From positions 1-64,000 of the forward strand of contig NZ_LNSB01000006.1 in NCBI RefSeq assembly GCF_001468285.1: a DNA stretch of 64,000 nucleotides, read 5' to 3'. Of the stretch, positions 15,419 to 36,056 are shown piece after piece; within the stretch, counting starts at the first letter, position 1, and each line of letters begins with the position of its first letter. The DNA comes from Sphingopyxis sp. HIX. Lineage in GTDB: Bacteria; Pseudomonadota; Alphaproteobacteria; Sphingomonadales; Sphingomonadaceae. Below the pieces are notes generated by a model, which ran no database searches, was not told the origin of the DNA, and worked only from the letters and a program-made list of their open reading frames with translations. The position numbers and the translations under genes are program-made.

Positions 15419-16132
15419 TTGGGTGATTTAATTGATGCAGCTTCATCAATATTGATGAACTCGGAAAGAAAAACTGAAAAGTTATCAAACAACATTTCTA
15501 ATATATCTACGCCGGGCTTCAAGCGTAGCATTGAAATTTCGCATATATCTCAAAAGGCGAATCGCGCAGACTCGTCGCAGATATCGCAGAACTTCATTCA
15601 AGATTCGTCACCCGGCACCTTGAAGCAGACCGGAAATCCGCTCGATATAGCGATTGTTGGTTCGGGCCACTTTCTTGTTCGCCAGGATAATCAATTTTTC
15701 CTTACCCGTTCTGGCCAGTTTTCCCGGGGCGCAGACGGGACGCTCCGCGATGCAAATGACATGGTGCTCCAACTCGCCGCCGGCGGCGATGCAACTGTCG
15801 AAGGCGATGGAATCGAGATACTCGCCGATGGAACGATGCTTGAGCGCGACATTCCCGTCGGCGCGATCGGAGTTTTTGCGGCACCGGAAGGCGCAAACCT
15901 GCACTTATCCGGCGGCGGCCTCATACCGGCGACAGGCGGAGCTGCCGCGGTCGGCGATACCGAATTCGAGATCCGGCAAGGCATGCTCGAATCTTCGAAC
16001 GTCGTGCTGAGCGACGAGATGGTCGCGCTGATGGCCAATGTTCGCCAAGCCGAAGGCGCCGCTCAACTGGTTCGGGCCTATGACCAGCTGATCGGCCAGG
16101 CGATCACCACCTTCGCGAGGGCGGGACGATGA
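15419..16132 (+). CDS. flgF: Flagellar rod protein, FlgF-like
   Basis: A 237-residue flagellar basal-body rod/hook family protein. The N-terminus carries the family motif S-x-N-I-S-N-I-S-T-P-G-F-K, and the middle contains the GDGIEILADGT-type domain. The C-terminus (L-M-A-N-V-R-Q-A-E) forms the second half of the coiled coil that packs rod subunits. As the first gene before flgG it is most likely the proximal rod protein FlgF. It starts at TTG 15419 after GGGGGA; an ATG at 15414 is in another frame and stops at once. The first ~130 bases are markedly AT-rich compared with the rest of the operon. Its stop overlaps the flgG start (ATGA). Confidence 0.82.
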   Translation: MGDLIDAASSILMNSERKTEKLSNNISNISTPGFKRSIEISHISQKANRADSSQISQNFIQDSSPGTLKQTGNPLDIAIVGSGHFLVRQDNQFFLTRSGQFSRGADGTLRDANDMVLQLAAGGDATVEGDGIEILADGTMLERDIPVGAIGVFAAPEGANLHLSGGGLIPATGGAAAVGDTEFEIRQGMLESSNVVLSDEMVALMANVRQAEGAAQLVRAYDQLIGQAITTFARAGR

Positions 16133-16902
16133 ACGGAGCCTTCGATATCGGTGCGGTCGCCCTGCGCGCGCAGCAGCGCGCGCTCGACACGATTGCGAAC
16201 AATGTCGCCAATGTGAACACGCCCACCTACAAACGGGTCGACAGCAATTTCACCGAGGTGATGGCGCGGCAGGCGCAGCCGGTCAGCCAGACGGCATTGC
16301 TGGCTTCGCAGGATTATCTTCCCACCGGCGGGGTCCGCTTTGCGCCCCGCGAGATGGTCTTTCATCAGGGCGATATCCGGGTCACAGGGAATCGCCTCGA
16401 CCTCGCCATCGAGGGCGCGGGCTTCATCGAGCTGATGGGTCCCGACGGCCAGCTTTTCCTGTGGCGCGGCGGAACGCTCAAGGTTCGCGACGACGGCCTG
16501 CTGGCCAGCGACAGCGGCCATGCGCTGCAGGCGAACATCGCCGTCCCCGACGACGCGACCAATCTGGAAATCATGTCCGACGGCACCGTCAAGGCCGATC
16601 TGCCCGAAAGCCAGGGCGTCGAACTGGGCCGGCTTTCGCTGGTGCGCGTCACCGACGGCAACGATCTCGATCGCCTCGACCGCAGCCTCTATCGCCCCGC
16701 CGAAGGCGCACGGCTGATCGATGCGGCCCCCGGCGAGGACGGCGCAGGCCTGTTCGCCCAAGGCCGGATCGAGAATTCGAATGTCGAGCTCAGCGAAGAG
16801 ATGGTCGATCTGCTGACGGTCCAGCGCGCCTTTGCGGCGAGCGCGCAGATCATTCAGGCGGCCGACCAGCTGGCCGGCATTACCAACAGTCTGAAACGAT
16901 AG
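16129..16902 (+). CDS. flgG: Flagellar distal rod protein FlgG
   Basis: A 257-residue rod protein. The N-terminal motif IANNVANVNTPTYKR matches the flagellar rod/hook signature, and the C-terminus ends with the partner helix L-L-T-V-Q-R-A-F-A-A-S-A-Q-I-I. The order flgF-flgG-flgA-flgH-flgI is standard. FlgG builds the distal rod that crosses the periplasm through the P and L rings. It is overlapped by flgF upstream, and six bases separate it from flgA. The length is near the usual 260 residues. Confidence 0.88.
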   Translation: MNGAFDIGAVALRAQQRALDTIANNVANVNTPTYKRVDSNFTEVMARQAQPVSQTALLASQDYLPTGGVRFAPREMVFHQGDIRVTGNRLDLAIEGAGFIELMGPDGQLFLWRGGTLKVRDDGLLASDSGHALQANIAVPDDATNLEIMSDGTVKADLPESQGVELGRLSLVRVTDGNDLDRLDRSLYRPAEGARLIDAAPGEDGAGLFAQGRIENSNVELSEEMVDLLTVQRAFAASAQIIQAADQLAGITNSLKR

Positions 16903-16908
16903 ACGATC

Positions 16909-17583
16909 ATGCTTTGGCTTCTATGGTTTCAGGCGGCCACGCTGCCGACCGGAGACGCCCTGCCCGAGCGGGCCTCGCTCGCGGTGCAGGGCGACTATCT
17001 CCTGCTGCGCCACCTGGTGGCGGTGGACCGGATTCCGGCGGGAACGCCGGGCGACCTCCGGCTGCTTCGGGCCCCGGACAACACGACGCGCATCGAGCTG
17101 ACCGAGGCCGAGCAGGTGGAACTGCTGCACCGCCGCCTGCCGACGGCCAGGCTCGCGCCGCAGAGGCGCGGTGCGCTGCGTGTCGAATTTACCCGTAGCG
17201 ATCGTGCCGCCTCGCCGCAGCGCTGCCTGGCCCTGAATCAGCCCGTCGCGGCCGGCGACGCGATCGACGCGGCGCGCGTCGTTTCGGCGCCCTGCGAGGC
17301 GGACAGGCCTCGCGCGCGGCTGTCCTATGATCATGCGGCGCGGGCGCCCATGGCGATCACGGCGCTGGCGGCGGGAAGCTATCTCGGCCCCGTCGCGGTC
17401 CCCGCGGCGCTGCCGCAGCCCGCGGGCGGCACGATGACACTGCGCACGCGCGTCGGGCCGGTCACGATCGATCGCGCGGCGACATTGATCCAGCCGGGCC
17501 GCGCCGGGCGGCGCGCCTTCGTGCGGCTGTCCGACGGGGAGATCGTCGCGGCCAGGCTGGCGGATGACGGAGGGGCGCAATGA
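16909..17583 (+). CDS. flgA: Flagellar P-ring assembly chaperone FlgA
   Basis: A 224-residue protein. A short hydrophobic N-terminus (MLWLLWFQAA) is a probable export signal. The C-terminal ~130 residues have the SAF-domain pattern of FlgA: LNQPVAAGDAIDAARV, followed by repeated small beta strands. FlgA is a periplasmic chaperone for FlgI polymerisation into the P ring. It sits between flgG and flgH/flgI, the expected context. The stop overlaps flgH by four bases. Identity rests on context as much as on motif, since FlgA is poorly conserved. Confidence 0.78.
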   Translation: MLWLLWFQAATLPTGDALPERASLAVQGDYLLLRHLVAVDRIPAGTPGDLRLLRAPDNTTRIELTEAEQVELLHRRLPTARLAPQRRGALRVEFTRSDRAASPQRCLALNQPVAAGDAIDAARVVSAPCEADRPRARLSYDHAARAPMAITALAAGSYLGPVAVPAALPQPAGGTMTLRTRVGPVTIDRAATLIQPGRAGRRAFVRLSDGEIVAARLADDGGAQ

Positions 17584-18161
17584 CGAGGAATGGAATGGCG
17601 GCGCTCGCGGGCCTGGCGCTGTGCGCCATCGCGGGGCCCGTGGCCGCCGAAGATCTGTACAGGGGCGGGTCCTTTCCGTCGATCGCGTCCGACATCAAGG
17701 CCGGCGGCATCGGCGATGCCGTCACCATCGTCATCTTCGAGAATGCGAGTGCGTCGAACCGCGTGACCAACCGGACGAGCAAGCAGACCCAGCTGCAAGG
17801 CGGGCTGAGCGCGGGATCGATCGACGAGCGCGGCAGCCTGGGCTTCGGCGGAACCTTCAGCGGCACCGGCGAGGTGTCGCGCTCGGAGCAACTGGTTGCG
17901 CGCATGACCGCGCAGGTGACGGGACTGGCGCCGAACGGCGATTTCCTGATCGAGGGCCAGCATAATATGCTGGTCAACGGCGAGCACCGCAACATCCGCA
18001 TTCGCGGGCGGATCCGGCCGGTCGACATCACCGCCGACAACAGCGTCGCCTCGTCGCGGATCGCCGACGCGCAGATCGACTTCGACGGCAAGGGCTTCGT
18101 CAGCCGCAGCGCCAAGCCCGGGCTGATCAACCGCATCTTCAGCTTTCTGGGGATCGGCTGA
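17580..18161 (+). CDS. flgH: Flagellar L-ring protein FlgH, apparently without a lipobox
   Basis: A 193-residue protein with the FlgH core: DIKAGGIGDAVTIVIFENASAS near residue 40, then LVARMTAQVTGLAPNGDFLIEG, and a C-terminal VDITADNSVASSRIADAQI. It forms the outer-membrane L ring. Family members normally are lipoproteins. Here the N-terminus reads A-L-C-A-I-A-G-P-V-A-A-E-D, with Leu before the only Cys and a signal peptidase I-like AAED site, so acylation looks unlikely. It overlaps flgA and is followed by flgI after one base. Confidence 0.88.
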   Translation: MTRNGMAALAGLALCAIAGPVAAEDLYRGGSFPSIASDIKAGGIGDAVTIVIFENASASNRVTNRTSKQTQLQGGLSAGSIDERGSLGFGGTFSGTGEVSRSEQLVARMTAQVTGLAPNGDFLIEGQHNMLVNGEHRNIRIRGRIRPVDITADNSVASSRIADAQIDFDGKGFVSRSAKPGLINRIFSFLGIG

Positions 18162-18162
18162 C

Positions 18163-19284
18163 ATGCGGCGCCTTCTCTCCCTCTTCGTGGCCGCGGCGGT
18201 GGTCGCCGCGGGAATGCCCGCGCCGGCGATGGCCAGCGACGTCCAGTTGACGGCGCTCGGGCGCTTCGCCGGGTGGCGCCAGAATGCGCTGATCGGCTAT
18301 GGTCTGGTGACCGGCCTCGCCGGATCGGGCGACACGCGGCGCAGCGAAGTGACGCGCCAGGCGCTGCGCAATGTGCTCGCACGGCTCGGCACGGTGGTGA
18401 CCGAAGAGCAGATCAACAGCCGCAACGTCGCGGTGGTGATCGTGACCGCGACGCTTCCCGCCTCCGCCAATCCCGGCGACCGGATCGACATCAGCATCTC
18501 GTCGATCGGCGATGCGCGCTCGCTCGCCGGCGGCACGTTGCTGATGACGCCGCTGCTCGGCCCCGACCAGCGTCCCTACGCGCTCGCGCAAGGGTCGCTC
18601 ACGGTCGGCGGCTTCGATTTCGAGGCCAATGCCAATCGCCAGCAGCGCAATTATCCGACATCGGGCATCGTGCCCGGCGGCGCGACGGTCGAGGCGGCGG
18701 TCGACGCGTCGGTGCTGAACGAGCGCGGCGAAATCTCCTTCCTGCTGAGCGAGCCGAGCTTCACCACCGCCCAGCGTATCGCGGGCCGGATCAACGGCGC
18801 GATGGGCGCCGGAACGGCCGAGGTCCGCAACGCCGACGAAGTGGTCATCCGCTTCGCCGGCAACCGCACCCAGCTGGCGTCGTTCGTCGCCACGATCGAG
18901 GGGCTCGCCGTATCACCCGACCGGCCGCAGCGCATCGTGATCAACGAACGCACCGGCACGATCGTCGCGGGCGGCGACGTCCGGGTGTCGAGCGTCGTCG
19001 TCTCGCAGGGCGACATCAAGGTCGCGGTCACCACCGAAAATTACGCCTCGCAGCCGAGCTTCATCGGCGGCTTCGCCTCCGACGTGCAAAGCCTGATCGT
19101 CAGCAACACCAAGCTGGAAGTCGACCAGGGCGGCAACGACCATGCGATGACCTTCCCCGACAGCAGCGTCGCCGCGCTGGTCGAGGGGCTCGCCCGCGCG
19201 CGCGTCGATACGCGGCGCACGATCAGCATCCTCCAGGCGATGAAGACCGCCGGAGCGCTCCACGCCGAAATCATCGTTCAATAG
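18163..19284 (+). CDS. flgI: Flagellar P-ring protein FlgI
   Basis: A 373-residue protein, the usual FlgI length. It has a clear signal peptide ending in AMAS, then the family start VQLTALGRFAGWRQNALIGY with G-L-V-T-G-L-A-G-S-G-D. Later motifs include SSIGDARSLAGGTLLMTPL and the C-terminal HAEIIVQ. FlgI forms the peptidoglycan ring around the rod with help from FlgA. One of the best conserved proteins in the locus. Eight bases separate it from flgB. Confidence 0.95.
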   Translation: MRRLLSLFVAAAVVAAGMPAPAMASDVQLTALGRFAGWRQNALIGYGLVTGLAGSGDTRRSEVTRQALRNVLARLGTVVTEEQINSRNVAVVIVTATLPASANPGDRIDISISSIGDARSLAGGTLLMTPLLGPDQRPYALAQGSLTVGGFDFEANANRQQRNYPTSGIVPGGATVEAAVDASVLNERGEISFLLSEPSFTTAQRIAGRINGAMGAGTAEVRNADEVVIRFAGNRTQLASFVATIEGLAVSPDRPQRIVINERTGTIVAGGDVRVSSVVVSQGDIKVAVTTENYASQPSFIGGFASDVQSLIVSNTKLEVDQGGNDHAMTFPDSSVAALVEGLARARVDTRRTISILQAMKTAGALHAEIIVQ

Positions 19285-19292
19285 GACAAATC

Positions 19293-19637
19293 ATGGATCC
19301 GATATCCGCAGCATTGATCAGCAAGGCACTCGACGGCCTGCATTTGCGCGCCACCGTCATCGCCGAGAATATCGCCAATGTGAACTCGCGCGACTTCGCC
19401 CCGCGCAAGGTGTCGTTCGAACAGGAACTGCGTGCGGCGGCCACGCAGGGGCTGGGTGCGATCGAGGGCAGCCGCGCGCGCATCCTGAGCCTCGATCCGG
19501 GCACCACCGACACCGCGGTGCGGCTCGACATGGAAATGGCCGACGCGGCGCAGACGTCGACGCGCTATGCGGCGCTGGTCGATATCCTGGGGCGGCAGAT
19601 GCAGATCCACCGCGCCGCGATCCGGGGAGGCCAGTGA
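19293..19637 (+). CDS. flgB: Flagellar proximal rod protein FlgB
   Basis: A 114-residue protein starting at ATG 19293. It shows the FlgB motif VIAENIANVNSRDFAPRK and a C-terminal R-Y-A-A-L-V-D-I-L-G-R-Q helix. FlgB is a proximal rod subunit contacting the MS ring and export gate with FlgC and FliE. The length is slightly under the usual ~130. Its TGA overlaps the flgC ATG by one base (TGATG). Confidence 0.88.
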   Translation: MDPISAALISKALDGLHLRATVIAENIANVNSRDFAPRKVSFEQELRAAATQGLGAIEGSRARILSLDPGTTDTAVRLDMEMADAAQTSTRYAALVDILGRQMQIHRAAIRGGQ

Positions 19638-20065
19638 TGGACGCCTTCGCTATCAGCCGCAGCGGCATGGATGTCGAATGGCAGCGGCTCCAGATCATCG
19701 CGCAGAATATCGCCAATGTGAACACCAGCCGGACCGGCGCCGGCGGCTACCTGCCGCGCAAGCTGGTATCCGGGCCCGCCGCGAGCTTCGATCGGCTGGT
19801 CACGCAGGGGTTGCAGTCGGGCCAGGCGCCGCGCGGCGTCGCAGTCTATGATGTCGCGGTCGCCGCGAACGGCGCGCGGCAGGTCTATGATCCGCGCCAC
19901 CCCGATGCCGACGAAGCGGGCTATGTGAGCTATCCCGCGATCAGCCAAGCCGAAGAAATGACGCTGATGGTCAAGACCAGCCGCGCCTATGAGGCCAATC
20001 TGGTGGCGATGTCGGCGGCGCTGCAGATGTACAACAGCGCCCTGCAGATCGGCCGGCAGTCATGA
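19637..20065 (+). CDS. flgC: Flagellar proximal rod protein FlgC
   Basis: A 142-residue protein. The N-terminal motif IIAQNIANVNTS and the C-terminal V-K-T-S-R-A-Y-E-A-N-L-V-A-M pattern are diagnostic of FlgC, and the length fits. The start is taken at ATG 19637, sharing one base with the flgB stop; a GTG one codon upstream is also possible. It overlaps fliE by ATGA. FlgC extends the rod from FlgB. Confidence 0.92.
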   Translation: MDAFAISRSGMDVEWQRLQIIAQNIANVNTSRTGAGGYLPRKLVSGPAASFDRLVTQGLQSGQAPRGVAVYDVAVAANGARQVYDPRHPDADEAGYVSYPAISQAEEMTLMVKTSRAYEANLVAMSAALQMYNSALQIGRQS

Positions 20066-20367
20066 TGGAAATCGCCCCGATCGCCGCCGCGTCGCCGGTC
20101 GCCGCCTCCGTCGAGCAGCCCCAGATCTCGTCGGCCCCGGCCGTTCCGGCAAGTTTCGAATCCCTGCTGACCGGAGGCTTTGCCGCGACCGACGCCAAGA
20201 TCGCTCGCGCCGACATGCTCGTCCGCCAGTTCGCGGTCGATGAAACGGTGCCGGTGCACCAGGTGACGATCGCGCTCGAGGAAGCGCGCATGGCGGTCGA
20301 GCTGGCGATGCAGGTCCGCACCCGGCTGGTCGAAGGCTATCGTGAACTGATGAACATGCAGCTTTGA
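20062..20367 (+). CDS. fliE: Flagellar MS-ring/rod adaptor FliE
   Basis: A 101-residue protein with the FliE C-terminal pattern H-Q-V-T-I-A-L-E-E-A-R-M-A-V-E-L and a final Y-R-E-L-M-N-M-Q helix. FliE joins the export gate and MS ring to the rod and is exported early. Position between flgC and fliF is standard. The start has two adjacent ATG codons (20062 and 20065); the first gives the ATGA overlap with flgC. Confidence 0.9.
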   Translation: MMEIAPIAAASPVAASVEQPQISSAPAVPASFESLLTGGFAATDAKIARADMLVRQFAVDETVPVHQVTIALEEARMAVELAMQVRTRLVEGYRELMNMQL

Positions 20368-21620
20368 ATTCCCCCATGGTCGCGCAAAAAACTTCCCCGT
20401 CGCAGCGCTATGTCCGCTTTGGCCTGGTGGCCTTTGCCGCCGTGTCGACGCTGCTCGTCCTCCTCTATTTCTTCGTCTTCGCGAAGGATTATGCGGTGCT
20501 GTTCGAAAATCTCCGCGAGTCCGACACGTCGGCGGTAACCGCGGAACTGGGCAAGCAGGGCATCGCCTATCGGCTGAAGGACGACGGCCACACGGTGCTC
20601 GTCGACAAGGACGAGATCGCCGCGGCGCGCGTCGCGGTCGCCGCCGCCAATGTGCTCGGCGGCGGCGACGTCGGCTTCGAGCTGTTCAACGATTCCGACA
20701 TCGGCCTGTCCGAATTCTCGCAGAAGATGAATTATCTGCGCGCGCTGCAGGGCGAGTTGACCCGCACGATCATGGCGATGGAGAATATCCGCTTCGCCCG
20801 TGTTCACCTCGCGCTTCCCGAGCGCAGCATCTTCCGGAACGAGCAGGCGCGCCCTTCCGCCGCGATCACGGTGCAGACCGCCGACGGCCGGCCGCTTGCG
20901 CAAAACCGTGTCCTGGGCCTGCAGCAACTCGTCGCGGCGGCCGTTACCGACCTGTCAGCCGAGCAGGTGGTGATCCTCGACGACGCGGGTATGCCGCTGA
21001 GCGCCCCGCCCGCCACCCCCATGGTGCATGGGGCGATCACCGAGCGCGGCGCCTTTGAACAATATAGCCGGATCAAGGCGACCAACGCGCTTCGCGACCT
21101 GATGGGCGACCGGCCGTTCGAAATCCGGCTCTCGGCGCGGCAGGCCTCATCGCCTGCGATCGCCACGGGCGCGAACGAATCGACCGGCGGCGCGGCGACC
21201 GGCGATACGGCGCAACGCCTGCAGATTCTTGTCCGGTCCGAGGCGGCGCTTTCCGCCGCAGAGCAGGCGGCGGCGATCGAGCGTCTCGTGAGCGAACTGG
21301 GGCTCGACCTCGGGATGGGCGACGCCATCGGTTTCGAAACCGGCGCTATCCGCCCCGACCCGCCCCTGGGCGCTGCGCCCCAAAACGCGGCGTGGAGCAC
21401 TCCCGCTGCCCCCACGCCGGCCGCCGCGCCGGCATCGAGCACGGGTTTTCCCACCGAATTCCTCACGAATCGCTGGCTGTGGATGCTCTTTGGCCTGATC
21501 GCGGTCGTGCTGTGGCTGGTCTGGCGGCAGCGCGGCTCGCTCAGCGACCCCGAACGCCAGCATTTCGCCGACGTCCTGGCCGAGGAAATCGAAATCTACC
21601 GGAACGAGCGTCGTGGCTGA
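20364..21620 (+). CDS. fliF: Flagellar MS-ring protein FliF, short, with minimal cytoplasmic tail
   Basis: A 418-residue protein; FliF is usually near 550. A first membrane segment lies at about residues 21-39 and a second at about 373-393. Between them are the ring-building modules, with the motif LPERSIFRNEQARPSAAITV. After the second membrane helix only about 30 residues remain. The long C-terminal cytoplasmic tail that ends in the FliG-binding helix in canonical FliF therefore appears absent. The start could be TTG 20364 (overlapping the fliE stop) or ATG 20376. The reduced tail agrees with the absence of a fliG gene next door. Confidence 0.88.
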   Translation: MNSPMVAQKTSPSQRYVRFGLVAFAAVSTLLVLLYFFVFAKDYAVLFENLRESDTSAVTAELGKQGIAYRLKDDGHTVLVDKDEIAAARVAVAAANVLGGGDVGFELFNDSDIGLSEFSQKMNYLRALQGELTRTIMAMENIRFARVHLALPERSIFRNEQARPSAAITVQTADGRPLAQNRVLGLQQLVAAAVTDLSAEQVVILDDAGMPLSAPPATPMVHGAITERGAFEQYSRIKATNALRDLMGDRPFEIRLSARQASSPAIATGANESTGGAATGDTAQRLQILVRSEAALSAAEQAAAIERLVSELGLDLGMGDAIGFETGAIRPDPPLGAAPQNAAWSTPAAPTPAAAPASSTGFPTEFLTNRWLWMLFGLIAVVLWLVWRQRGSLSDPERQHFADVLAEEIEIYRNERRG

Positions 21621-21990
21621 GCCGTCGCCCCTTTTCCAACGCTGGCACCGCCTGTCGCGCGCCGATCGCAAAGCGATCCTCGCGCGCATGTCGGACGATC
21701 AGCGCGGCGACCTGATGGCGATGATCGCGGCCGATGCCGAGAAGGACGGCGCCGGCGACCCGGCGCGCGCCGATAGCTGGACTCTTTTCTCGCCGCGCAT
21801 GGCGACAGCGCTCGGCGCGATCGAAGCCCAGGCCGAATCGCCACCGGTCGCCTTGGCGATGACATCGGCGGGCGCAAAGCTGCTGCTCGACAGCGCGCGC
21901 GAGATCCGTGCAGCGCAGCCCGCGCGGGAAAGCTGGATCGCCACGGCGCAGCGGCGCTGGCGGCAATGGCTCAAGGAACTCGACCTGTGA
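21613..21990 (+). CDS. Unknown 125-residue protein in the fliG position
   Basis: It starts at GTG 21613, overlapping fliF by eight bases, and overlaps fliH by GTGA. In nearly all flagellar operons fliG (about 330 residues) lies exactly here. This protein is only 125 residues and has no recognisable FliG middle domain or charged torque helix. It contains R-L-S-R-A-D-R-K-A-I-L-A-R-M near the N-terminus and a C-terminal basic/aromatic helix R-R-W-R-Q-W-L-K-E-L. It could be a collapsed FliG remnant, an adaptor replacing FliG between MS ring and C ring, or an injectisome SctK-like part. I cannot assign it by sequence. Tight coupling argues that it is functional. Confidence 0.75.
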   Translation: MAEPSPLFQRWHRLSRADRKAILARMSDDQRGDLMAMIAADAEKDGAGDPARADSWTLFSPRMATALGAIEAQAESPPVALAMTSAGAKLLLDSAREIRAAQPARESWIATAQRRWRQWLKELDL

Positions 21991-22667
21991 GCGCGCTGAT
22001 CAAGCACGGCGACGATCATGGCCTGCAGCGCGTGCGGCCGGTCGCCATGCCGGGCCATACCCCGCCCAAGGCCGCGGTGGTCGATGGCCCGTCGCCGGGT
22101 GATATCAGGATAGCCGAACTCGAGGCCGCGCTGCGCGATGCGCAAAGCCGGCATGACGCCGCGCAGCGGCAGCATGCGATCGACCTGGAAAAGGCGCACC
22201 AATCCGCCCATGCCGAGGGCCTCGCCGCGGGCCGGAGCGAGAGCGAGGCGCTGCTCGCGGCGATCGGCGATGCGGCGAGCGCGGCCCGCGTGTCGGCGCG
22301 CGAGGCGCTGGCCGGAGCCTCGACCACGGCGCTGATGCTGGCGCGTTCAGCGCTCGGCAAGATCCTGGGCGACACCGACCAATGGCCGGCGATGATCGCC
22401 GGCATCATTGCGCAGCGCAGCGCCGACATCGATGCAGCTTTGCTGCTCCATATCCGCGTCAGCGCCGCCGACTTCCCCGATCCGGACACGCTGAGCCAGG
22501 TGGCCGGATCGGATGAGGCGATCAAGATTTCCGCGGATTCGAAGCTCGAAAGCGGCCGCTGCGTCTTTGCACTGCGGCTCGGCGACATGGAGGTGGGTCC
22601 GGCGCTGCAAGGCCCGAAATTGCTCGCCTTCTTCGACGATCTCGCCGCGCGCGGAGACGGGCAATGA
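21987..22667 (+). CDS. fliH: Flagellar export ATPase regulator FliH
   Basis: A 226-residue protein starting at GTG 21987 with a GTGA overlap. A helical central part with A-E-G-x-A-A-G-R-S-E spacing is the glycine-zipper-like segment typical of FliH. The C-terminal half resembles the V/A-ATPase stalk-like domain (I-R-V-S-A-A-D-F-P-D-P-D). FliH binds FliI and tethers it to the C ring through FliN. The identification rests on pattern plus position directly before fliI. Confidence 0.78.
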   Translation: MSALIKHGDDHGLQRVRPVAMPGHTPPKAAVVDGPSPGDIRIAELEAALRDAQSRHDAAQRQHAIDLEKAHQSAHAEGLAAGRSESEALLAAIGDAASAARVSAREALAGASTTALMLARSALGKILGDTDQWPAMIAGIIAQRSADIDAALLLHIRVSAADFPDPDTLSQVAGSDEAIKISADSKLESGRCVFALRLGDMEVGPALQGPKLLAFFDDLAARGDGQ

Positions 22668-29023: not shown

Positions 29024-29763
29024 AGCGTCGGCGCCCCCGGCATGGTCTGGACCTGGTGGTGCGGCCCGAGAGAGTGGAGGCGGCCCTGTGGCGTCATGCG
29101 CTGGCCGACCTTGCACGGACGCGCGGGAAGATTTTCTCGCACTATGCGCGCTTCGCACGGGCGATCGCCCGCGATCGCTACCTTTCGCGCCGGCCCGACA
29201 ATTACGAATTGGGCGACGTCGAACAATTCGCTTACGAAGGCCTGCTGCAGGCCATCGACCGGTTCGAGCCGCTGCGCGCCATGCCTTTTCGTGCTTTCGC
29301 GCGGCCCCGCATTGCCGGCAGCATCGCCAACGGCCTTGGCAAGTACAGCGAAGCAGGCGCCAATGCCGCATATCGAAGACGGGCCGAACGCGACCGGTTG
29401 AAATCATTGATGGCGGAAATGCCCGAAGATGGCGGAAGCGCGCTGCAACAACTGTCCAAGCTGGCGGCGACGCTGGCGATCGGGCTGATCATCGAGGAAT
29501 GGCGGCAGGAAGAAGTCGAGCAGGTTCGTGCAAGCGAACCGACGGCCTATGACACACTGGCGTGGAAACAGACTGAATTGGCGCTGCGCGACAGCATAGC
29601 CATGCTGCCCGCCAACGAGGCATTTATCGTGCAGCAGCATTATTTGAACGGTGTCGCATTCCGGCAGATCGCCCTGATCCTGGGATTGTCCAACGGCCGC
29701 GTGTCGCAGCTCCATTCGCGCGCGCTCGGAAAGCTGCATAAACAAATGGCGAAAAGCCGATGA
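29020..29763 (+). CDS. Sigma-70 family factor, FliA-like
   Basis: A 247-residue protein. The region-2 core is D-V-E-Q-F-A-Y-E-G-L-L-Q-A-I-D-R-F followed by F-R-A-F-A-R-P-R-I-A-G-S-I. Region 4 is a helix-turn-helix FRQIALILGLSNGRVSQLHS. The size and the absence of region 1.1 fit the FliA (sigma-28) group. Its start overlaps fliP, so it is translated with the export gate. In canonical systems FliA transcribes flagellin and late genes; here no late genes are adjacent, so its targets must lie elsewhere or be non-flagellar. I leave the symbol blank because divergence is considerable. Confidence 0.82.
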   Translation: MKRRRPRHGLDLVVRPERVEAALWRHALADLARTRGKIFSHYARFARAIARDRYLSRRPDNYELGDVEQFAYEGLLQAIDRFEPLRAMPFRAFARPRIAGSIANGLGKYSEAGANAAYRRRAERDRLKSLMAEMPEDGGSALQQLSKLAATLAIGLIIEEWRQEEVEQVRASEPTAYDTLAWKQTELALRDSIAMLPANEAFIVQQHYLNGVAFRQIALILGLSNGRVSQLHSRALGKLHKQMAKSR

Positions 29764-29779: not shown

Positions 29780-30340
29780 ATGAGCAAATTGTGCAGCGAT
29801 CAGCAGATGGCCGAACTGATCGAAACGATCGGCGGCGACGATGTTCATGACATCGAAAAGATCGACCGGCTGCTGAGCGCCTTTCCCGAGGACCCGCGCT
29901 TGCATTTCATGAAGGGATCGACGCTCGTCGGAAAGCAGCGGATGATCGAGGCCCATCTGTCGCTGCAGAAGGCCGTCGAGCTGGCGCCGGACTTCGCAGT
30001 CGCGCGCTATCAACTCGGCTTCTTCGAGCTGACGTCCGGCGAAGCCGACAAGGCGCTCGCAACCTGGGGTCCGCTGCTCATGCTCCCCACGGACAATTAT
30101 CTGCGCCGTTTCGTCGAGGGGCTGACCCATTTGATCCGCGACGAATTCGAAGCGGCTATCGGCGAATTCGAGGCGGGCATGGCTATAAATCAGGACAATC
30201 CGCCGATGAACCACGACATCGGCCTGCTGATCGCGGAGTGCCGCAAGATGCTGGGCGGCGGCGGCACGCCCGCCGGTGACAGCAGCGAGTCGGCGACATC
30301 CTTCCTGCTTGGACAATTTTCGTCCGGCACCACGCACTGA
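29780..30340 (+). CDS. TPR protein of the flagellar locus
   Basis: A 186-residue protein. Residues ~40-150 show helical repeat spacing: H-L-S-L-Q-K-A-V-E-L-A-P-D-F-A-V-A-R-Y-Q-L and then E-A-A-I-G-E-F-E-A-G-M-A-I-N-Q-D-N-P, typical TPR signatures. The size and fold type are comparable to class II chaperones of injectisomes (SycD/LcrH), though I see no specific motif. It follows the sigma gene after 16 bases and is likely in the same operon. A role as secretion chaperone or scaffold is an inference. Confidence 0.72.
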   Translation: MSKLCSDQQMAELIETIGGDDVHDIEKIDRLLSAFPEDPRLHFMKGSTLVGKQRMIEAHLSLQKAVELAPDFAVARYQLGFFELTSGEADKALATWGPLLMLPTDNYLRRFVEGLTHLIRDEFEAAIGEFEAGMAINQDNPPMNHDIGLLIAECRKMLGGGGTPAGDSSESATSFLLGQFSSGTTH

Positions 30341-30345: not shown

Positions 30346-30690
30346 ATGACCCGCATATCCTCCTCCGACCATATCATGATCCTGCTTCGCCAGAAGCTGG
30401 AGCGTGCCGCCGAGCTCAAGAAGGGCCAGAAGGCCAAGGCGGTCGGCGGCACGGCGCGCGACGATCCATCGAATATCCAGCGCATAAGAGCGCTCGCGCA
30501 GATCGACACGCTCAGCGACGAGGATGTGGAACGGTCGATGATCCAGGGCCTGCTGGTCGAGGAACTGGGTGAAGCGCTGGTCAACGACCCGAAATTCCAG
30601 CAGCTGGTATCGAGGATTACCGACATGCTCACGCATGACGAAGCGGGCAAGGCCCTGCTCGCCGCCGCGCGAGACGAGCTGAAGGACTGA
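30346..30690 (+). CDS. Hypothetical protein, last gene of rightward flagellar operon
   Basis: A 114-residue protein, five bases behind the TPR gene. It is charged, largely helical (LLRQKLERAAELKKGQKAK near the N-terminus) and has no membrane segment or signal peptide. I do not recognise a family. Position at the end of the export operon makes it a candidate small exported component or chaperone of this machine. No terminator with a clear T-run follows before the converging gene at 30718. Confidence 0.65.
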   Translation: MTRISSSDHIMILLRQKLERAAELKKGQKAKAVGGTARDDPSNIQRIRALAQIDTLSDEDVERSMIQGLLVEELGEALVNDPKFQQLVSRITDMLTHDEAGKALLAAARDELKD

Positions 30691-30717
30691 CCGCCGCCGC
30701 GCCCCGGTCGGTGCCCC

Positions 30718-31833
30718 CTATCGCGCGATACGGCTCAGCAACGTCCGCAGCGTCCGGCCCTGTTCGTCGAGCGGCTCGTCGAGCGCGCGCTCCAATATCT
30801 GTCCGGCCTGATCGGCGTCGCCCTGCGACGATGCGAGCATCATCGCCGCAAAGGCGGCCGAGAAGCATTGCCGGTCGAGCCGCAGCGCGACCGCGATGCT
30901 GCGTTCGGCCGCTTCGCCTTCGCCCTTCAGCGCCTGGATCGTCGCGAGCGAGCCATGGCATTCGGCAAAATTCTCGTCGAGCGCCATCGCGGTTGCGAAG
31001 CGCGCCTCGGCGGTGTCGCGGTCGCCGGCGATCAGATAGGCCCAGCCCGCGGCGATCCAGCTGCCGAGATTGTCCTCGAAGAGCGCGGCGCCATGGTCGA
31101 TCTGCTGCAGCGCTTCTTCGCTCGCACCCAGGCTGAGGTTGGCGAGCCCCAGCCCCATCCAGGCGCGGGGCGACCGGTCGTTCTGCGCCAAGGCACGTTC
31201 GAGCATCACGCGCGCTTCTTCGGCATCGCCGTCGCCGAGCGTGAGCGTCCCCAACGTGGTCAACGCATCGGGATGATCGCCCGCGGCGATCGCCGCCTCG
31301 CGCGCCAGGTTCTCGTCATCGAGGTCCATGGCGAGCACCGACACGGCGGCCTGCAGCGGGGCGTAACCGGCATGCGCAGCAAGATAGGGCGCGATCTTCG
31401 CGGCCGCGCCGTCGAAATCGCCGCGTTCGTGCGCCAGTTGCAGATCGAGCATCGCGGCCTGCGGCAGCGCCGCCACGGTCGCATCGTCGAGCAGGTCGCC
31501 GGCGCGCTCGAACTGCCGGTCGAGCGCCAGGCTCCAGGCGAGATTGAAGCGCAGCGCGGGATCGCCCGGATGCTTGCCGCTCAGATCCGCGAACAAGGCG
31601 GCGGCATGCGCCGGCCGGCCGTTGCGCATCGCGGCCAGGCCGGCTCCCGCGGCATCGCCGTCGGAAAGGCCGTCGGCTGCTTCGAGGCGCGCATAGCAGT
31701 CGTCCGCCGTCGCGGCGTCGCCCGCCGCCAGCGCGGCTTCGGCGCAGTCGCGCAGCAGCGCCGGATTGGCGGGATCGCTCGCGAGATAGGCGAGCAAGCG
31801 CGCCAGGGTCTGCTGTTGTTCGGTGGCGCTCAT
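30718..31833 (-). CDS. TPR-repeat protein, last gene of leftward flagellar operon
   Basis: A 371-residue protein formed almost wholly of TPR-like helices (L-R-F-N-L-A-W-S-L-A-L-D; A-W-M-G-L-G-L-A-N-L-S-L-G-A). It has no signal peptide and should be cytoplasmic. It lies 52 bases downstream of flhA on the same strand, so it is probably in the fliQ-fliR-flhB-flhA operon. Its role is unknown; TPR proteins in such loci act as chaperones or scaffolds. Confidence 0.75.
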   Translation of the reverse strand: MSATEQQQTLARLLAYLASDPANPALLRDCAEAALAAGDAATADDCYARLEAADGLSDGDAAGAGLAAMRNGRPAHAAALFADLSGKHPGDPALRFNLAWSLALDRQFERAGDLLDDATVAALPQAAMLDLQLAHERGDFDGAAAKIAPYLAAHAGYAPLQAAVSVLAMDLDDENLAREAAIAAGDHPDALTTLGTLTLGDGDAEEARVMLERALAQNDRSPRAWMGLGLANLSLGASEEALQQIDHGAALFEDNLGSWIAAGWAYLIAGDRDTAEARFATAMALDENFAECHGSLATIQALKGEGEAAERSIAVALRLDRQCFSAAFAAMMLASSQGDADQAGQILERALDEPLDEQGRTLRTLLSRIAR

Positions 31834-31885: not shown

Positions 31886-33919
31886 TCAATTGTCGAGCTT
31901 CACGACCTGGAACGACTGGAGCGCGGTGCGCAGCGGGATTTCCTCGATGGCGAGGATCGACAGCTGCGGAATGGCACGCTGGGTCAGCCGCAGCAGATTG
32001 CGCCGGATCTGCGCGGCGCAGAGCAGCACCGGCGAGCGCCCCTGCCGCAGCATCGTCTCCGCCGCGGGCGCCAGGTTGCGCAGCAGCTGATCCGCGAGCT
32101 TGGGTTCGAGGCCGATCGCCGCTTGCGCGCCGCCCGCCGTGCTGCTGGCGACGATCTGGTTCTCGACGCGCGGGTCGAGGCTGATCACCGCGAGATGGCT
32201 GTGGCTACCGCGCAGCCCGTTGCAGATGCTGGTGCTGAGATGGCGGCGCACGAGGTCGGTGAGCATGACATGGTCGCGCTCGGTGCGCGCGACGTCGACC
32301 AGAACTTCGAGGATCAGCTCGATATTGGCGATCGATACCCGCTCGGCCAGCAGATGCTGCAGCACGCGCTGGATATCGGAAATCGTCATGATGTTCGGCA
32401 CCAGTTCCTCGACCAGGCTCGGCTGGCGCTCGCGCGCGGCATCGATCAGGCGCGCGGTCGCGGCGCGGGTCAGCATCGTCGAGACTTCGGCCTTCATGAC
32501 TTCGGCGAAATGCGTCATCAGCACGGTCTCGGCGTCGATGATCGTGAGCCCTTTCGCGCGGGCTTCCGCTTCGCGCGCGGCGTCGACCCAGCGTCCGGGC
32601 AAGCCGAAGGCGGGATCGGTCGCGTCGATGCCGTCGACCTGTTCGCCCTCGCCGCCGGGCCTTACCGTGAAGATATTGCCGGGAACGATCCGGCCCGCCC
32701 CGTAAGCCGTTCCGTGCAACAGGATGCGATAGTCCTGCGACCCCAGATCGGAAGCGTCGGTGAGCCGTACGTTGGGAAAGGCGATACCGAAGGATTTTTC
32801 GTGCGCGATGCGCGTCGCCGCGATCCGGTCGAGGAGCAATGCGCGGCGGTCGGACCAATAGGTCGCGAGTTCGCTGCCCAGCAATATCTCGATCGGCGCC
32901 GTCTCGCCGAGCGACGCCGCCTCGACGATGTCGCCTGCGCTGTCCTCGTTCTCGGCCAAAGCGGCCTCGGCCCGAACGCGCCGGCGAATCCGAACCCAGG
33001 CGACAAAGGCGAGAATGCCGATCAGCAGGATCGGCCATTTGGGCATGCCGGGCAGCAGCGTCAGCGCGAGCAGGATGCCGCAGACGATGAGCGGGATGCG
33101 CGGCACCGACGAGAGCTGGGTGAAGATTTCGGTGCTGAGCTCGCGGTCCGAGGCCGAGCGCGTGACGATGATCCCGGTCGCGATCGAGATGATCAGCGCG
33201 GGCAATTGCGTCGCGATGCCGTCGCCGATGGTCAGCAGCGCGAAATGCTCGAGCGACTGGCCCCAGCTCATGCCCATCTGCACGACCCCGACGATCAGCC
33301 CGGCGATGATGTTGATCAGCACGATGATGATGCCCGCGACCGCGTCGCCCTTCACGAACTTCGACGCGCCGTCCATCGCGCCGTAGAAAGACGCTTCCTT
33401 CTCGAGATTCTTGCGCCGCGCCGCGGCCTCATTCTGGTCGATCAGCCCCATGTTGAGATCGGCGTCGATGCTCATCTGCTGGCCGGGCAGCGAGTCGAGC
33501 GTGAAGCGCGCCGCGACCTCCGACACGCGCTGTGCGCCCGAGGTGATGACGATGAACTGCACGACGACGAGGATCGAGAAGACGACGAGGCCGATGACGA
33601 AATTGCCCTGCACCGCAAAGGCACCGATCGAATCGATCACCTCGCCGGCGTCGGCGCCGGTCAGGATCAGCCGCGTTGCCGCGACGTTGAGCGACAGGCG
33701 ATAGAGCGTCGCGACGAGGAGCAGCGACGGGAAGGTCGAAAAATCGACCGGCTTCGCGACGTAGAAGGTCAGCAGCATGATCGTCAGCGCGAGGCCGAAG
33801 TTCATGATGATCGCGAGGTCGAGAAAGGCCGGCGGAATCGGCGCGAACAGGATGACGAGGATCAGCACGAAGCCCGCGACGAGCAGCAGATCCTTGTTGC
33901 GGCCGAACAGACGCGTCAT
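31886..33919 (-). CDS. flhA: Flagellar export gate protein FlhA
   Basis: A 677-residue protein. Eight membrane segments occupy the first ~330 residues, with conserved LYRLSLNVAATRLIL and the cytoplasmic FHIPEP-loop region (around residues 150-210, including A-S-F-Y-G-A-M-D-G-A-S-K-F-V-K-G-D). The large C-terminal cytoplasmic domain ends in QVVKLDN. FlhA forms the nonameric ring that selects substrates. Length and motifs are canonical. Its ATG overlaps the flhB stop. Confidence 0.95.
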   Translation of the reverse strand: MTRLFGRNKDLLLVAGFVLILVILFAPIPPAFLDLAIIMNFGLALTIMLLTFYVAKPVDFSTFPSLLLVATLYRLSLNVAATRLILTGADAGEVIDSIGAFAVQGNFVIGLVVFSILVVVQFIVITSGAQRVSEVAARFTLDSLPGQQMSIDADLNMGLIDQNEAAARRKNLEKEASFYGAMDGASKFVKGDAVAGIIIVLINIIAGLIVGVVQMGMSWGQSLEHFALLTIGDGIATQLPALIISIATGIIVTRSASDRELSTEIFTQLSSVPRIPLIVCGILLALTLLPGMPKWPILLIGILAFVAWVRIRRRVRAEAALAENEDSAGDIVEAASLGETAPIEILLGSELATYWSDRRALLLDRIAATRIAHEKSFGIAFPNVRLTDASDLGSQDYRILLHGTAYGAGRIVPGNIFTVRPGGEGEQVDGIDATDPAFGLPGRWVDAAREAEARAKGLTIIDAETVLMTHFAEVMKAEVSTMLTRAATARLIDAARERQPSLVEELVPNIMTISDIQRVLQHLLAERVSIANIELILEVLVDVARTERDHVMLTDLVRRHLSTSICNGLRGSHSHLAVISLDPRVENQIVASSTAGGAQAAIGLEPKLADQLLRNLAPAAETMLRQGRSPVLLCAAQIRRNLLRLTQRAIPQLSILAIEEIPLRTALQSFQVVKLDN

Positions 33920-35004
33920 GCGGGGTCTTCCTGATGGGGCGATGCGGTGGCGCCTTGCCGGCGCAGGCCGATGTAGAGCGCGGCGACCGCGCGATAATGA
34001 TCGGCGCCCACGGGTTGATCGACCTGATGGCCGTGGAACAGCGCCCGCGCGAGCGGCGGGTTGGCGAAGATCGGAACGTTCGAGAGGCGCGCCTTGCGCT
34101 TCATCAGCTGCGCGAAGCGGTTGCGGCCCCGCGCGCGGACGACCGGAGCGTTCATCGTCTCGGCATCATAATGGAGCGCGACCGCATAATGCTCGGGATT
34201 GGTCACCAGCAGGTCGGCGCCGGCGACGCGCCCGAGACCCTTCGCCTGCTCGACCATCCTGGCGTGCAGCTGCTTGCGCTTCTGCTTGATCCGCGGCTCG
34301 CCCTCGCGGTCCTTGACCTCGCGCGTCAGCTCGCGGCGGCTCATCCGCATCTGGCGGCGGAATTCGCGGCGCACGATCAGTTGGTCGACGATGGTAAAGA
34401 AGATGGCGAGGCCCAGAAAGGCCATGATCAGCTGGCCCGCACTGCCGGTCAGCGCACGCACGACGCCGTTGGTGCTGGCCAGCCCGCCCCCGAAACTCGC
34501 GATCGCGCCGGTGATCACCAACCAGGTCGCCGCGGCGTAGCAGGCCATCTTGACGATATTCTTCATCGTCTCCTTGAGCATGCGGAGCGAGAAGAGGCGC
34601 TTGAGGCCCTGCGCCGGATTGAGCTTGGTGAAATCGGGCTTGAGCGGCTGCAGCGTGAAGATGAAGCCGCGCAGCTGGATCAGCTCGAGCACGATCAGCA
34701 CGACGATGAGCGCCACCCCGAGCAGCATCAGCGGATAGAGCGCTTCGCGCAGCGCTGTCCCGGTGATCGCCAGCAGGTCGAGCGTATCGCCGGCGCGGTC
34801 GATGCCGACGGTGAGCGAGCGGCGCATGATCTGCGCCAGCGTCACCGCAAACCCCGCCCCCGCGGCCAGCGCGAAGAAGATCAGCGCGACGAGGCTGCCG
34901 ACGAAGCCCAGGTCCATGCCGCGCGCGACCTGCCCCTTTTCGCGCGCGCGCTGGAGCTTGAAGGGCGTCGCTTCCTCGGTGCGGTTCTGTTCCTGGCCCT
35001 CCAT
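33916..35004 (-). CDS. flhB: Flagellar substrate-specificity switch FlhB (NPEH variant)
   Basis: A 362-residue protein starting with TEEATPFKLQRAREKGQVAR, four membrane segments, and a cytoplasmic domain. The self-cleavage site is N269-P270-E271-H272, where nearly all FlhB and SctU proteins have NPTH. The N-P bond needed for cleavage is kept, so autocleavage may still occur, but the Thr-to-Glu change is unusual. It converts export from rod/hook to late substrates. It overlaps flhA and lies three bases from fliR. Confidence 0.93.
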   Translation of the reverse strand: MEGQEQNRTEEATPFKLQRAREKGQVARGMDLGFVGSLVALIFFALAAGAGFAVTLAQIMRRSLTVGIDRAGDTLDLLAITGTALREALYPLMLLGVALIVVLIVLELIQLRGFIFTLQPLKPDFTKLNPAQGLKRLFSLRMLKETMKNIVKMACYAAATWLVITGAIASFGGGLASTNGVVRALTGSAGQLIMAFLGLAIFFTIVDQLIVRREFRRQMRMSRRELTREVKDREGEPRIKQKRKQLHARMVEQAKGLGRVAGADLLVTNPEHYAVALHYDAETMNAPVVRARGRNRFAQLMKRKARLSNVPIFANPPLARALFHGHQVDQPVGADHYRAVAALYIGLRRQGATASPHQEDPA

Positions 35005-35007
35005 CGC

Positions 35008-35769
35008 TCAGGGCACCGCGACGAGGGTGAGCGCATCGCCGAGCGCGAGGCGGATCAGGCGGAGGAACAGCGCCGCCGACACGCCGATCGCGATCGGCAG
35101 GCAGAGCAGCATCGCGATCGCCTTGACCTGGAAGCCGAGCAGCAGCACGTTCATCTGCGGCAGGGTGCGCGACATGAAGGCGATCGCGAGGTCGAGCAGG
35201 AACAGCGCCATCATCACCATGCCGACGAGCCCGATGGCGATGCCGAACAGCGCCCCCATCAATTGCGCCATCGCGCCGAGATCGGGGCGCAGCGCGGCGC
35301 CCATCGGCACGACGTCGAGCGAGGCGGCCCACACGGCGAGCAGGTCGAACGGTCCCGATCCCGCGAAGAAGACCGCCGCGGTCGCATAGGCGAGGATCGT
35401 GCCCGCCAGCGGCATCTGCGCCTGCGTCGTCGGGTCGGCGACCATCGCCAGCCCGAAGCCCGCCTGGATGTCGAGCGTCTGCCCCGCCCAGAGCACCGCG
35501 GCAAAGGCGAGCTGCAGCGCCAGCGCAATGGCGATGCCGATCACCAGCTCGCCCATCGCCAGCGCCATCAGCGACGGCGCTTCCTCGACCAGCGCCGCGG
35601 TGCGATCGGGCCAGGTGCCGGCCATCCACACCGCGAGCCCGAAAGCCATCAGCACGCGCACCGTCACCGGCACGCGCACCAGCGTGAAGGGCGGCGCGAA
35701 GGCGAGCGCGGGCGCGATGCGCAGCGACACGCACAGGATCGCCAATATCTGCCGGGTGAAATCGTCCAC
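35008..35769 (-). CDS. fliR: Flagellar export gate protein FliR
   Basis: A 253-residue membrane protein. The start is set at GTG 35769, just after the fliQ stop (35789-35787), because the longer open frame only overlaps fliQ out of register. Conserved motifs include RIAPALAFAPPF, QTLDIQAGFGLAMVADP and L-L-L-G-F-Q-V-K-A-I-A. Six hydrophobic segments are visible. FliR forms the export channel with FliP and FliQ. Length is normal. Confidence 0.92.
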   Translation of the reverse strand: MDDFTRQILAILCVSLRIAPALAFAPPFTLVRVPVTVRVLMAFGLAVWMAGTWPDRTAALVEEAPSLMALAMGELVIGIAIALALQLAFAAVLWAGQTLDIQAGFGLAMVADPTTQAQMPLAGTILAYATAAVFFAGSGPFDLLAVWAASLDVVPMGAALRPDLGAMAQLMGALFGIAIGLVGMVMMALFLLDLAIAFMSRTLPQMNVLLLGFQVKAIAMLLCLPIAIGVSAALFLRLIRLALGDALTLVAVP

Positions 35770-35786
35770 GAAGCGTGTCGGCCCGC

Positions 35787-36056
35787 CTATTGCGCCAGCG
35801 TCGGGATCGAGAGGTAGAGCTCGCGCGCCCAGTCGGTGAGCCGGCCGAGCATCCACGGCCCGAGCGCGATCAGCAGGAACGCCGCGGTCAGGATCTTGGG
35901 CACATAGGAGAGCGTCATCTCCTGGATCTGCGTCGCGACCTGGAAGATCGAGATGATCAGCCCGACCACCAGCGTCGCGAGCAGCACCGGCAGCGCCAGC
36001 AGCACCGCGTTCCACAGCATCTGGTCGAGCAAATCGAGCGCCTGCCCCTGTTCCAC
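35787..36056 (-). CDS. fliQ: Flagellar export gate protein FliQ
   Basis: An 89-residue protein with two membrane helices (LLALPVLLATLVVGLIISIF and FLLIALGPWML) separated by Q-V-A-T-Q-I-Q-E-M-T-L-S-Y-V-P-K, the signature of FliQ. It is the first gene of the leftward operon, and its promoter region contains a CtrA-type half-site. FliQ packs around the FliP-FliR channel. Confidence 0.94.
   Translation of the reverse strand: MEQGQALDLLDQMLWNAVLLALPVLLATLVVGLIISIFQVATQIQEMTLSYVPKILTAAFLLIALGPWMLGRLTDWARELYLSIPTLAQ

Follow-up and report, generated by a model that had tools for sequence, protein, structure and literature searches.

A motorless and filamentless flagellar locus of Sphingopyxis sp. 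HIX as a probable secretion machine for giant Rhs toxin-like proteins

The only well-known type III machines are the bacterial flagellum and the injectisome. A filamentless hook-basal body with a presumed role in export occurs in Buchnera, where it is the reduced single flagellum of a symbiont. Here we describe a flagellum-like locus of Sphingopyxis sp. HIX that lies at positions 15419-36056 of a 64,000-nucleotide stretch of contig NZ_LNSB01000006.1, referred to below as the window. The locus encodes a hook-basal body and its export apparatus, lacks recognizable motor and filament genes and is accompanied by a gene for a giant Rhs protein. Its gene content and conservation make it probable that this motorless, filamentless flagellum is dedicated to the secretion of giant Rhs toxin-like proteins, and the machine is found in many soil and water bacteria. 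With similar confidence we regard the locus as a separately evolved kind of type III machine, its export function being predicted.

The genes of the locus were named by Pfam and NCBIfam scans. Pfam assigns flgH, flgI, fliE, fliF, fliI, flgD, flgE, fliN, fliO, flhA, flhB, fliR and fliQ and recognizes rod-type proteins at the places of flgF, flgG and flgC, which gene order tells apart. NCBIfam backs flgB, fliH, the SpoA protein and the FliA-type sigma factor, all under those models' own cut-offs, the flgB and sigma scans having been made on over-long open reading frames (ORFs). The sigma factor scored 82 bits against TIGR02479, whose cut-off is 190, with FliA/WhiG as its closest family. Position assigned fliJ, fliK and flgA, the last also by its orthologues; the gene at the flgA-like place in the locus of a Burkholderia ubonensis plasmid is annotated FlgA. 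The components are the following.

15419..16132, forward strand: flgF-like rod protein (Pfam Flg_bbr_C, D1 and Flg_bb_rod; name from gene order)
16129..16902, forward strand: flgG-like rod protein (Pfam; name from gene order)
16909..17583, forward strand: flgA-like P-ring chaperone (position and orthologues, same place in relatives; no Pfam match)
17580..18161, forward strand: flgH, L-ring (Pfam FlgH, E 1e-41)
18163..19284, forward strand: flgI, P-ring (Pfam FlgI, E 1e-108)
19293..19637, forward strand: flgB, rod protein (TIGR01396, E 7e-13, under cut-off, inside a longer ORF)
19634..20065, forward strand: flgC-like rod protein (Pfam)
20062..20367, forward strand: fliE (Pfam FliE)
20364..21620, forward strand: short fliF, 418 aa (Pfam YscJ_FliF only; aligned with long FliF by hhalign)
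21613..21990, forward strand: orfX, helical protein of 125 aa, exactly at the place of fliG (19 sequences aligned, that of the window included)
21966..22667, forward strand: fliH (TIGR03825, E 4e-5, under cut-off)
22664..23986, forward strand: fliI, ATPase (Pfam)
23979..24428, forward strand: fliJ-like (position; no family match)
24425..25225, forward strand: fliK-like (position; no family match)
25222..25671, forward strand: flgD, hook cap (Pfam FlgD)
25673..26848, forward strand: flgE, hook (Pfam, including FlgE_D2)
26845..27603, forward strand: SpoA protein at the FliM/SctQ place (C-terminal SpoA domain, Pfam under cut-off; N-terminal part unmatched)
27626..27892, forward strand: fliN (Pfam FliMN_C)
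27915..28292, forward strand: fliO (Pfam FliO)
28289..29023, forward strand: fliP (read in another forward frame; conserved in relatives)
29020..29763, forward strand: sigma-28-like factor of FliA/WhiG type (TIGR02479, E 4.5e-23; Pfam sigma regions 2 and 4)
29780..30340, forward strand: tprA, small TPR protein (Pfam TPR)
30346..30690, forward strand: orfY, conserved protein of 114 aa (22 sequences aligned; weak FliT match, E 0.03)
30718..31833, reverse strand: tprB, larger TPR protein (Pfam TPR)
31886..33919, reverse strand: flhA (Pfam FHIPEP, E 1.6e-224; own clade)
33916..35004, reverse strand: flhB with NPEH motif (Pfam and motif)
35008..35770, reverse strand: fliR, start not fixed (Pfam Bac_export_1)
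35787..36056, reverse strand: fliQ (Pfam Bac_export_3)

The first-pass annotation of this DNA had reported hook-basal-body genes, export genes and a sigma factor in the locus and had noted the absence of fliG, motA/B, fliL, fliC, fliD, flgK and flgL. The former statement is borne out by Pfam and NCBIfam and, for fliP, by the frame reading; the latter also stands, as FliG, flagellin, FliD, FlgK, FlgL, FliL and MotA/B have no match among the 30 locus ORFs scanned. In the same general scans no locus ORF was named as the secretin SctC, a needle or a translocon protein, no dedicated search for these having been made.

The Sphingopyxis sp. HIX genome (4.87 Mb in 90 contigs) was scanned in full for flagellar genes. 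Its single FliG_C match lies at position 60093 of contig C10, which also holds both flagellin-domain genes of the genome and one of its two FlhA genes, the other being in the window. A long FliF with the C-terminal domain, the FliG N, M and C domains, FliD, MotA, MotB, FlgK and a sigma factor are likewise on C10, so that fliG, flagellin, fliD, flgK and motAB, which the earlier annotation had proposed to look for, are all found there. The window set is therefore a second machine and not half of a split regulon. The case of an ordinary split flagellum, with one motor and filament set elsewhere and no other basal body, is excluded by the C10 flagellum.

A search with the window FlhA returned 65 named loci. 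The closest is in Sphingopyxis panaciterrae (88%), and others are in Croceicoccus, Altererythrobacter, Sphingomonas, Novosphingobium, Caulobacter, Asticcacaulis, Brevundimonas, Ponticaulis, Burkholderia and Trinickia. The locus was read in 28 alpha- and betaproteobacterial genomes (the window and 27 others), some of them cut by contig or stretch ends. In the window the order is flgF-flgG-flgA-flgH-flgI-flgB-flgC-fliE-fliF-orfX-fliH-fliI, continuing with fliJ-fliK-flgD-flgE-spoA-fliN-fliO-fliP-sigma-tprA-orfY. The named genes are collinear with it in 21 of the 28; six show cross-matches between flgE, flgF and flgG as their sole departure, mostly at stretch ends, and in Caulobacter radicis orfY sits before fliQ. 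The products of orfX, fliJ and fliK are mostly too divergent to be named, the gap of their place being present, and the position of the flhA-flhB-fliR-fliQ block varies among loci. Outside the 28, the otherwise similar locus of Sphingomonas colocasiae (G434, L254) has flgH-flgI inverted beside tprB. Gaps of 7-11 kb occur between orfY and tprB; those of Altererythrobacter and of the AlphaM locus hold seemingly unrelated genes, and that of Sphingomonas QA11 contains rhs. Ten ordinary-flagellum markers taken from C10 were never the best name of any ORF in the 28 loci. Flagellin and the hook-associated proteins FlgK and FlgL were not seen there with the C10 proteins as queries, nor was MotA or MotB, the FliG-less genomes described below not having been searched genome-wide for stators.

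The FliF of these loci is short, at 374-491 aa in all 28, with those of Burkholderia the longest. Across 53 genome entries the FliF frames of machine loci measure 374-524 aa and those of ordinary flagella start at about 545 aa, if two frames cut by contig ends and the injectisome SctJ are excepted. In profile alignment (hhalign) short FliF covers the ring-building motifs RBM1, RBM2 and RBM3 of its long counterpart but has a deletion at the collar; past RBM3, in the region that holds the tail by which long FliF binds FliG, nothing aligns. At the place of fliG stands orfX, which may replace FliG in joining FliF to the SpoA ring, a guess from its position. The window protein has no Pfam match and no Pfam family is found in more than one of the 19 members; comparison with solved structures returned nothing convincing, the model having a predicted template modelling score (pTM) of only 0.45. 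That orfX is a remnant of FliG is unproven, a profile comparison giving a probability of 5% against a FliG alignment of few and partly truncated sequences.

An ordinary second flagellum might borrow FliG, stators and flagellin from a set such as that on C10, and FliG is indeed found in the HIX genome and in 42 of 52 genome entries, most of them with flagellin. This is very improbable given that the part of FliF that would bind FliG is unmatched and that some machine genomes seem to have nothing to borrow. FliG was not found in 10 of the 52 entries, and the same 10 (of 53) are those in which flagellin was not found. Two of the records had each been entered under two handles (G193/G223 and G147/G225) and were taken only once, so that the ten entries amount to eight distinct genomes without FliG and flagellin: Croceicoccus estronivorus, Altererythrobacter sp. 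CC-YST694, a Parerythrobacter metagenome-assembled genome (MAG), an uncultured Sphingomonadaceae, Sphingorhabdus sp. Alg239-R122, the Sphingomonadales MAG 63-6, an uncultured Erythrobacter and Sphingomonas formosensis. Completeness is 92-100% in six of the eight (matched by coordinates); the Parerythrobacter MAG is weak evidence because FliF was also not found there. The proposal of the first-pass annotation that a second flagellar system may have been turned into a secretion apparatus in a free-living bacterium gains support from the C10 set and from these eight genomes. It is also favoured by the FlhB and FlhA features and the predicted Rhs cargo described below.

In a tree of 52 FlhA rows the 38 machine sequences form one clade, with a Shimodaira-Hasegawa-like approximate likelihood ratio (SH-aLRT) of 100 and a stem of 1.6, on the flagellar side and apart from five injectisome homologues. 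The tree took 38 of 66 machine rows and nine flagellar rows, and because it is a quick, bootstrap-free tree with long branches and so few flagellar rows, the exact place of the clade among flagella is not fixed. An injectisome-type FlhA/SctV was seen in addition to the machine in the genomes of L257, L258, L259, L261 and L262, most of which also have a flagellum, so that three type III lineages can share one genome. The motif of the export switch is retained. The FlhB cleavage motif NPxH is present in all 21 loci examined, and the FlhA residues matching E. coli D456, F459 and T490, which belong to the dimple of FlhA that docks chaperone-substrate pairs, are kept in 60, 61 and 59 of 66 sequences. 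With no gene for a filament protein, the machine should have another late substrate, and Rhs fits this role. The missing motor and filament genes are what a decaying relic of a lost flagellum would show. Such a relic is scarcely credible: these motifs are intact, some 20 named genes hold almost the same order across 28 genomes from two classes as far as the sequence extends, and the locus is carried as one block on a conjugative plasmid.

The giant Rhs gene and the elements associated with it lie downstream of fliQ.

45209..56446, reverse strand: giant rhs gene, 3745 aa, likely cargo (Pfam DUF6531, RHS repeats and LysM; variable C-terminus)
56523..56548, reverse strand: sigma-28-type promoter CTAAAC-N15-CGGAT, upstream of the giant rhs gene
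39322..42381, reverse strand: orphan Rhs C-terminal cassette with LysM and another tip (likeness to the main rhs)
36658..37071, reverse strand: Imm70-family immunity gene (Pfam PF15601, E 6e-13)

The locus had been described as bounded on both sides by unrelated genes. This is not simply so: the rhs and immunity genes, which stand 0.6-20 kb downstream of fliQ, are very probably part of the same system. The giant Rhs protein matches RHS_repeat at E 1e-85 and has no Pfam match to PAAR. Its core is 44% identical to that of S. panaciterrae over 3191 columns; in the last 350 residues the longest match to S. panaciterrae is at most 23 residues, and to Sphingomonas QA11, whose homologous gene of 3427 aa lies inside the machine locus, there is none. 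The orphan cassette shares 98.2% DNA identity with the main rhs over 1176 bp before diverging; at the protein level the two agree in 74% of 642 columns, after which the tips differ. The target of Rhs may be bacterial or eukaryotic, and the immunity gene and orphan cassettes suggest rivalry among bacteria. Small ORFs at 37071-38013 on the reverse strand resemble loose Rhs tips or immunity genes and have no Pfam match. IS200/RAYT-like transposase ORFs were noted at 43697-44436 (reverse strand, with an rhs-type sigma-28 motif 74 bp upstream) and at 38031-38708.

The first ~45 residues of the Rhs protein are conserved from residue 1 as a leader, MVAIFTGxGxG..RGS..LG..G.LG....GR, that is kept in 58 distinct N-termini aligned by eye, that of the window included, with no likeness upstream. 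By eye the leader is not hydrophobic, and for residues 1-23 no structure is predicted (predicted local distance difference test, pLDDT, <50; alignment of 42). Type III leaders are expected to be disordered.

Upstream of 60 rhs genes a count of spaced words returned TAAA(C) followed by CGGAT, CCGAC or CCGAT. The pattern TAAAC-N13-17-C[C/G]GA[T/C] occurs in 40 of these 60 upstreams, from which it was itself derived, 68-101 bases before the ATG and with a spacer of 15 in all 40, against 0.12 expected from shuffles. It resembles the FliA consensus. Upstreams of structural genes are nearly free of it (flgF 1/26, flgD 1/26, tprA 1/22 and none in nine other sets, with ORF starts not refined), and no copy occurs in 124 kb of C10 and C6 scanned outside the window, which take in the region upstream of flagellin. 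The 3.27 Mb of DNA examined (overlaps included) hold 46 distinct strict sites, of which 42 stand just before an rhs leader (41 by pattern and that of B. ubonensis, L255, by eye) and four elsewhere. Among five plasmid rhs genes outside the 60, a site in two (L255 and L270) is the sole out-of-sample support. A sigma-28-type promoter on rhs, together with the machine's own sigma-28-like factor, would put Rhs in the place of flagellin, and rhs would form a predicted regulon of that factor. A sigma-28-like motif was also seen at 29739 on the forward strand, directly ahead of tprA, where it overlaps the last part of the sigma gene.

Co-occurrence of leader and machine was evaluated with a leader query of 222 aa at E 1e-6 and, in the family set, a short-FliF threshold of E 1e-30. 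The leader was found in 49 of 51 machine genomes. Among 196 genomes of the order it occurs in three, exactly the three with a full-length short FliF match. Three more FliF frames below 500 aa turned up in that set (G069, G087 and G169), all in genomes where the leader was not found. Among 397 genomes of the family the leader occurs in 22 and short FliF in 18: 17 have both, one has short FliF only (a 340-contig assembly), five have the leader only and 374 neither. The leader is thus present in 17 of 18 machine genomes and 5 of 379 others (Fisher p ~1.6e-24, kinship ignored), and the 17 are spread over 12 genera, with best rhs copies of ~3,000-5,000 aa. A 387-aa FliF frame (G281) had passed the short-FliF search but lies in an ordinary flagellar locus with FliG; it was dropped, which lowered the machine count from 19 to 18. 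The leader is on the same contig in 36 of 50 machine loci, within 50 kb of fliF in 35 and within 25 kb in 29.

The leader was also found in 6 of 72,556 plasmid records. The three closest plasmid FlhA relatives (47-50%), in Variovorax PDNC026, Burkholderia ubonensis and Undibacterium YM2, are all in leader-bearing records, and the other leader records, Undibacterium KW1 and two of Eleftheria terrae, are not among the best 40 FlhA rows. The conjugative plasmid of B. ubonensis carries the block from fliQ to tprB, followed directly by a 14.7-kb gene annotated 'hypothetical protein'. On the Undibacterium YM2 plasmid (L268:5784-44630) the leader protein is a 38.8-kb gene annotated 'tandem-95 repeat protein'.

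These results make the giant Rhs protein the likely cargo of the machine, and a sequence of events can be proposed. A hook-basal body has lost its filament and, with a short FliF and neither FliG nor stators encoded in the locus, also its torque generation. After hook completion FlhB would switch specificity, and the sigma-28-like factor would then activate rhs as FliA activates flagellin. The TPR proteins or orfY could be export chaperones that dock on FlhA. The small protein tprA, whose C-terminal SATSxLLxQF consensus is conserved across 21 sequences, is a possible candidate; its best 60 of 100 matches to solved structures include generic TPR proteins, on which no chaperone assignment can rest. 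Unfolded Rhs would leave through the hook channel, led by its disordered leader, and fold outside, where the variable C-terminus would act on neighbouring cells and the immunity gene would protect kin.

Several observations weigh against this proposal. Secretion, toxicity and structure are predictions from sequence. The promoter pattern was discovered and counted on the same 60 upstreams and is missing in 20, and no site lies within 400 bp upstream of the plasmid rhs genes L268, L269 and L271. Both C-terminal tips in the window, of the main rhs and of the orphan, match no Pfam family. Rhs proteins of three to five thousand residues, with one of ~12,900, are extreme as type III substrates. Two machine MAGs (G201 and G226) have no detected leader, and in 14 of 50 machine loci, mostly drafts, rhs is missing from the contig that carries the machine. 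The leader also occurs without the machine, in 5 of 379 genomes; two of these are nearly closed with the gene broken or internally deleted, in one it is truncated and in two it ends at contig ends.

The machine might instead export something else, with Rhs linked to it in another way such as a shared mobile island and leaving via Sec or the type VI secretion system (T6SS). For other large Rhs proteins the accessible part of PMC10433427 gives signal peptides or the T6SS as the means of exit, a T6SS sheath gene is carried by 9 of 51 machine genomes, and the case for Rhs export is itself a sequence-based one. This explanation appears improbable, since co-occurrence extends over 12 genera of the family and to betaproteobacteria with varying rhs placement, the sigma-28-type promoter is on rhs and on hardly any structural gene, the leader is predicted disordered and is not hydrophobic by eye, Rhs has no PAAR match, and the sheath gene (VipB) was not found in 42 of the 51 machine genomes, that of HIX included.

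A further alternative, less likely than export into the surroundings yet worth serious consideration, is that Rhs is displayed at the hook tip as an adhesin or contact weapon and that the machine is a surface-display device. A hook without a filament would suit this. FlgK and FlgL were seen in none of the 28 loci, which may leave the hook with a free end, and in the view reported in the available text of PMC10433427 some bacteria carry large Rhs proteins as appendages on their surface. Nothing decides against display, and LysM could bind peptidoglycan on either side. For the secretion machine proposed here we lean, by a little, towards a wider reading, in which it is a third type of type III secretion, derived from the flagellum independently of the injectisome, with Rhs as a sigma-28-controlled and chaperoned late substrate. 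In the same reading Rhs would pass out through the hook, or stay at its tip, to serve as a weapon on contact with other cells, and the system would have moved from one bacterium to another as a single block, a conjugative plasmid being among its carriers.

The remainder of the window upstream of the machine holds an operon at 6777-11229 that encodes an ORC-CDC6-like ATPase (PF24389) together with a CARF-like protein (PADLOC, E 1e-27). Its third-position GC is 0.61-0.66, against mostly 0.75-0.9 in the machine genes, and it looks like an acquired defence island. The sole tRNA found in the window, tRNA-Leu(gag) at 468-554, is a possible island border. An ORF of 899 aa at 12083-14782 (reverse strand) adjoins the machine and has no Pfam or PADLOC match.

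No such system is described in the open-licence titles and abstract starts among the matches listed; subscription papers or preprints could hold one. We found no description of a flagellar apparatus exporting giant Rhs proteins, which would come close to a third type of type III machine. In its accessible text PMC3482391 names a flagellum-like type III system among toxin routes in general and reports an RNase gene in Firmicutes flagellar operons that is possibly flagellum-delivered; the route list for polymorphic toxins in its abstract does not include type III. The 'hat' of Kaplan 2022 (PMC9380563, as far as its accessible text goes) is a structure of the inner membrane, described from species that have genes for flagellar export, and is not the window locus. 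If the proposal is true, the machine is a second natural experiment in which a motility organ became a secretion device, keeping rod, rings and hook and acquiring its own class of cargo. For bacteria without a T6SS it suggests how giant Rhs proteins could leave the cell. A survey that marks flagella by FlgB, FlgC and FliE (PMC3459982, in the part available) would probably file the machine as a flagellum, and in one public plasmid record its genes are labelled flagellar and the cargo gene 'hypothetical protein'. Species that seemingly have no other flagellum make clear tests of the machine possible.

Compared with known systems, the earlier likening to Buchnera is loose. The two share a filamentless hook-basal body with presumed export, but the machine is a separate lineage and not a symbiont's remnant, and we know of no Rhs link in Buchnera. 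The flag-2 or lateral flagella are alike in being second flagellar loci within one genome, and one Escherichia fergusonii flag-2 locus carries VgrG, Rhs and Imm26 genes as cargo; unlike the machine, flag-2 retains the flagellin LafA (both from the accessible part of PMC6993521). The needle-less type III secretion system of myxobacteria is type III-like and linked to attack on bacteria (PMC10433427, available text), but is listed without FlgBCDEK, FliE, FliG and FlgH (PMC3459982, available text) and without a needle, whereas the machine has rod, ring and hook genes. Rhs toxins that are T6SS-delivered or on the surface share RHS repeats, a variable C-terminus, a nearby immunity gene and an orphan cassette with the window Rhs, which differs in its own leader, its sigma-28-type promoter, its type III link and the lack of a PAAR match. 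With the injectisome the machine shares a type III apparatus without motility, probably for effector delivery; it differs in an FlhA outside the injectisome group and in its flagellar rod, P and L rings and hook, which points to independent derivation. The bacterial flagellum is closest, with rod, rings, hook, hook cap, export gate, ATPase, FlhB switch motif and a predicted sigma-28-type late promoter logic in common. The machine locus departs from it in having no FliG, stators, hook-associated proteins or filament, in its short FliF and separate FlhA clade, and, as predicted, in giving the regulatory place of flagellin to Rhs.

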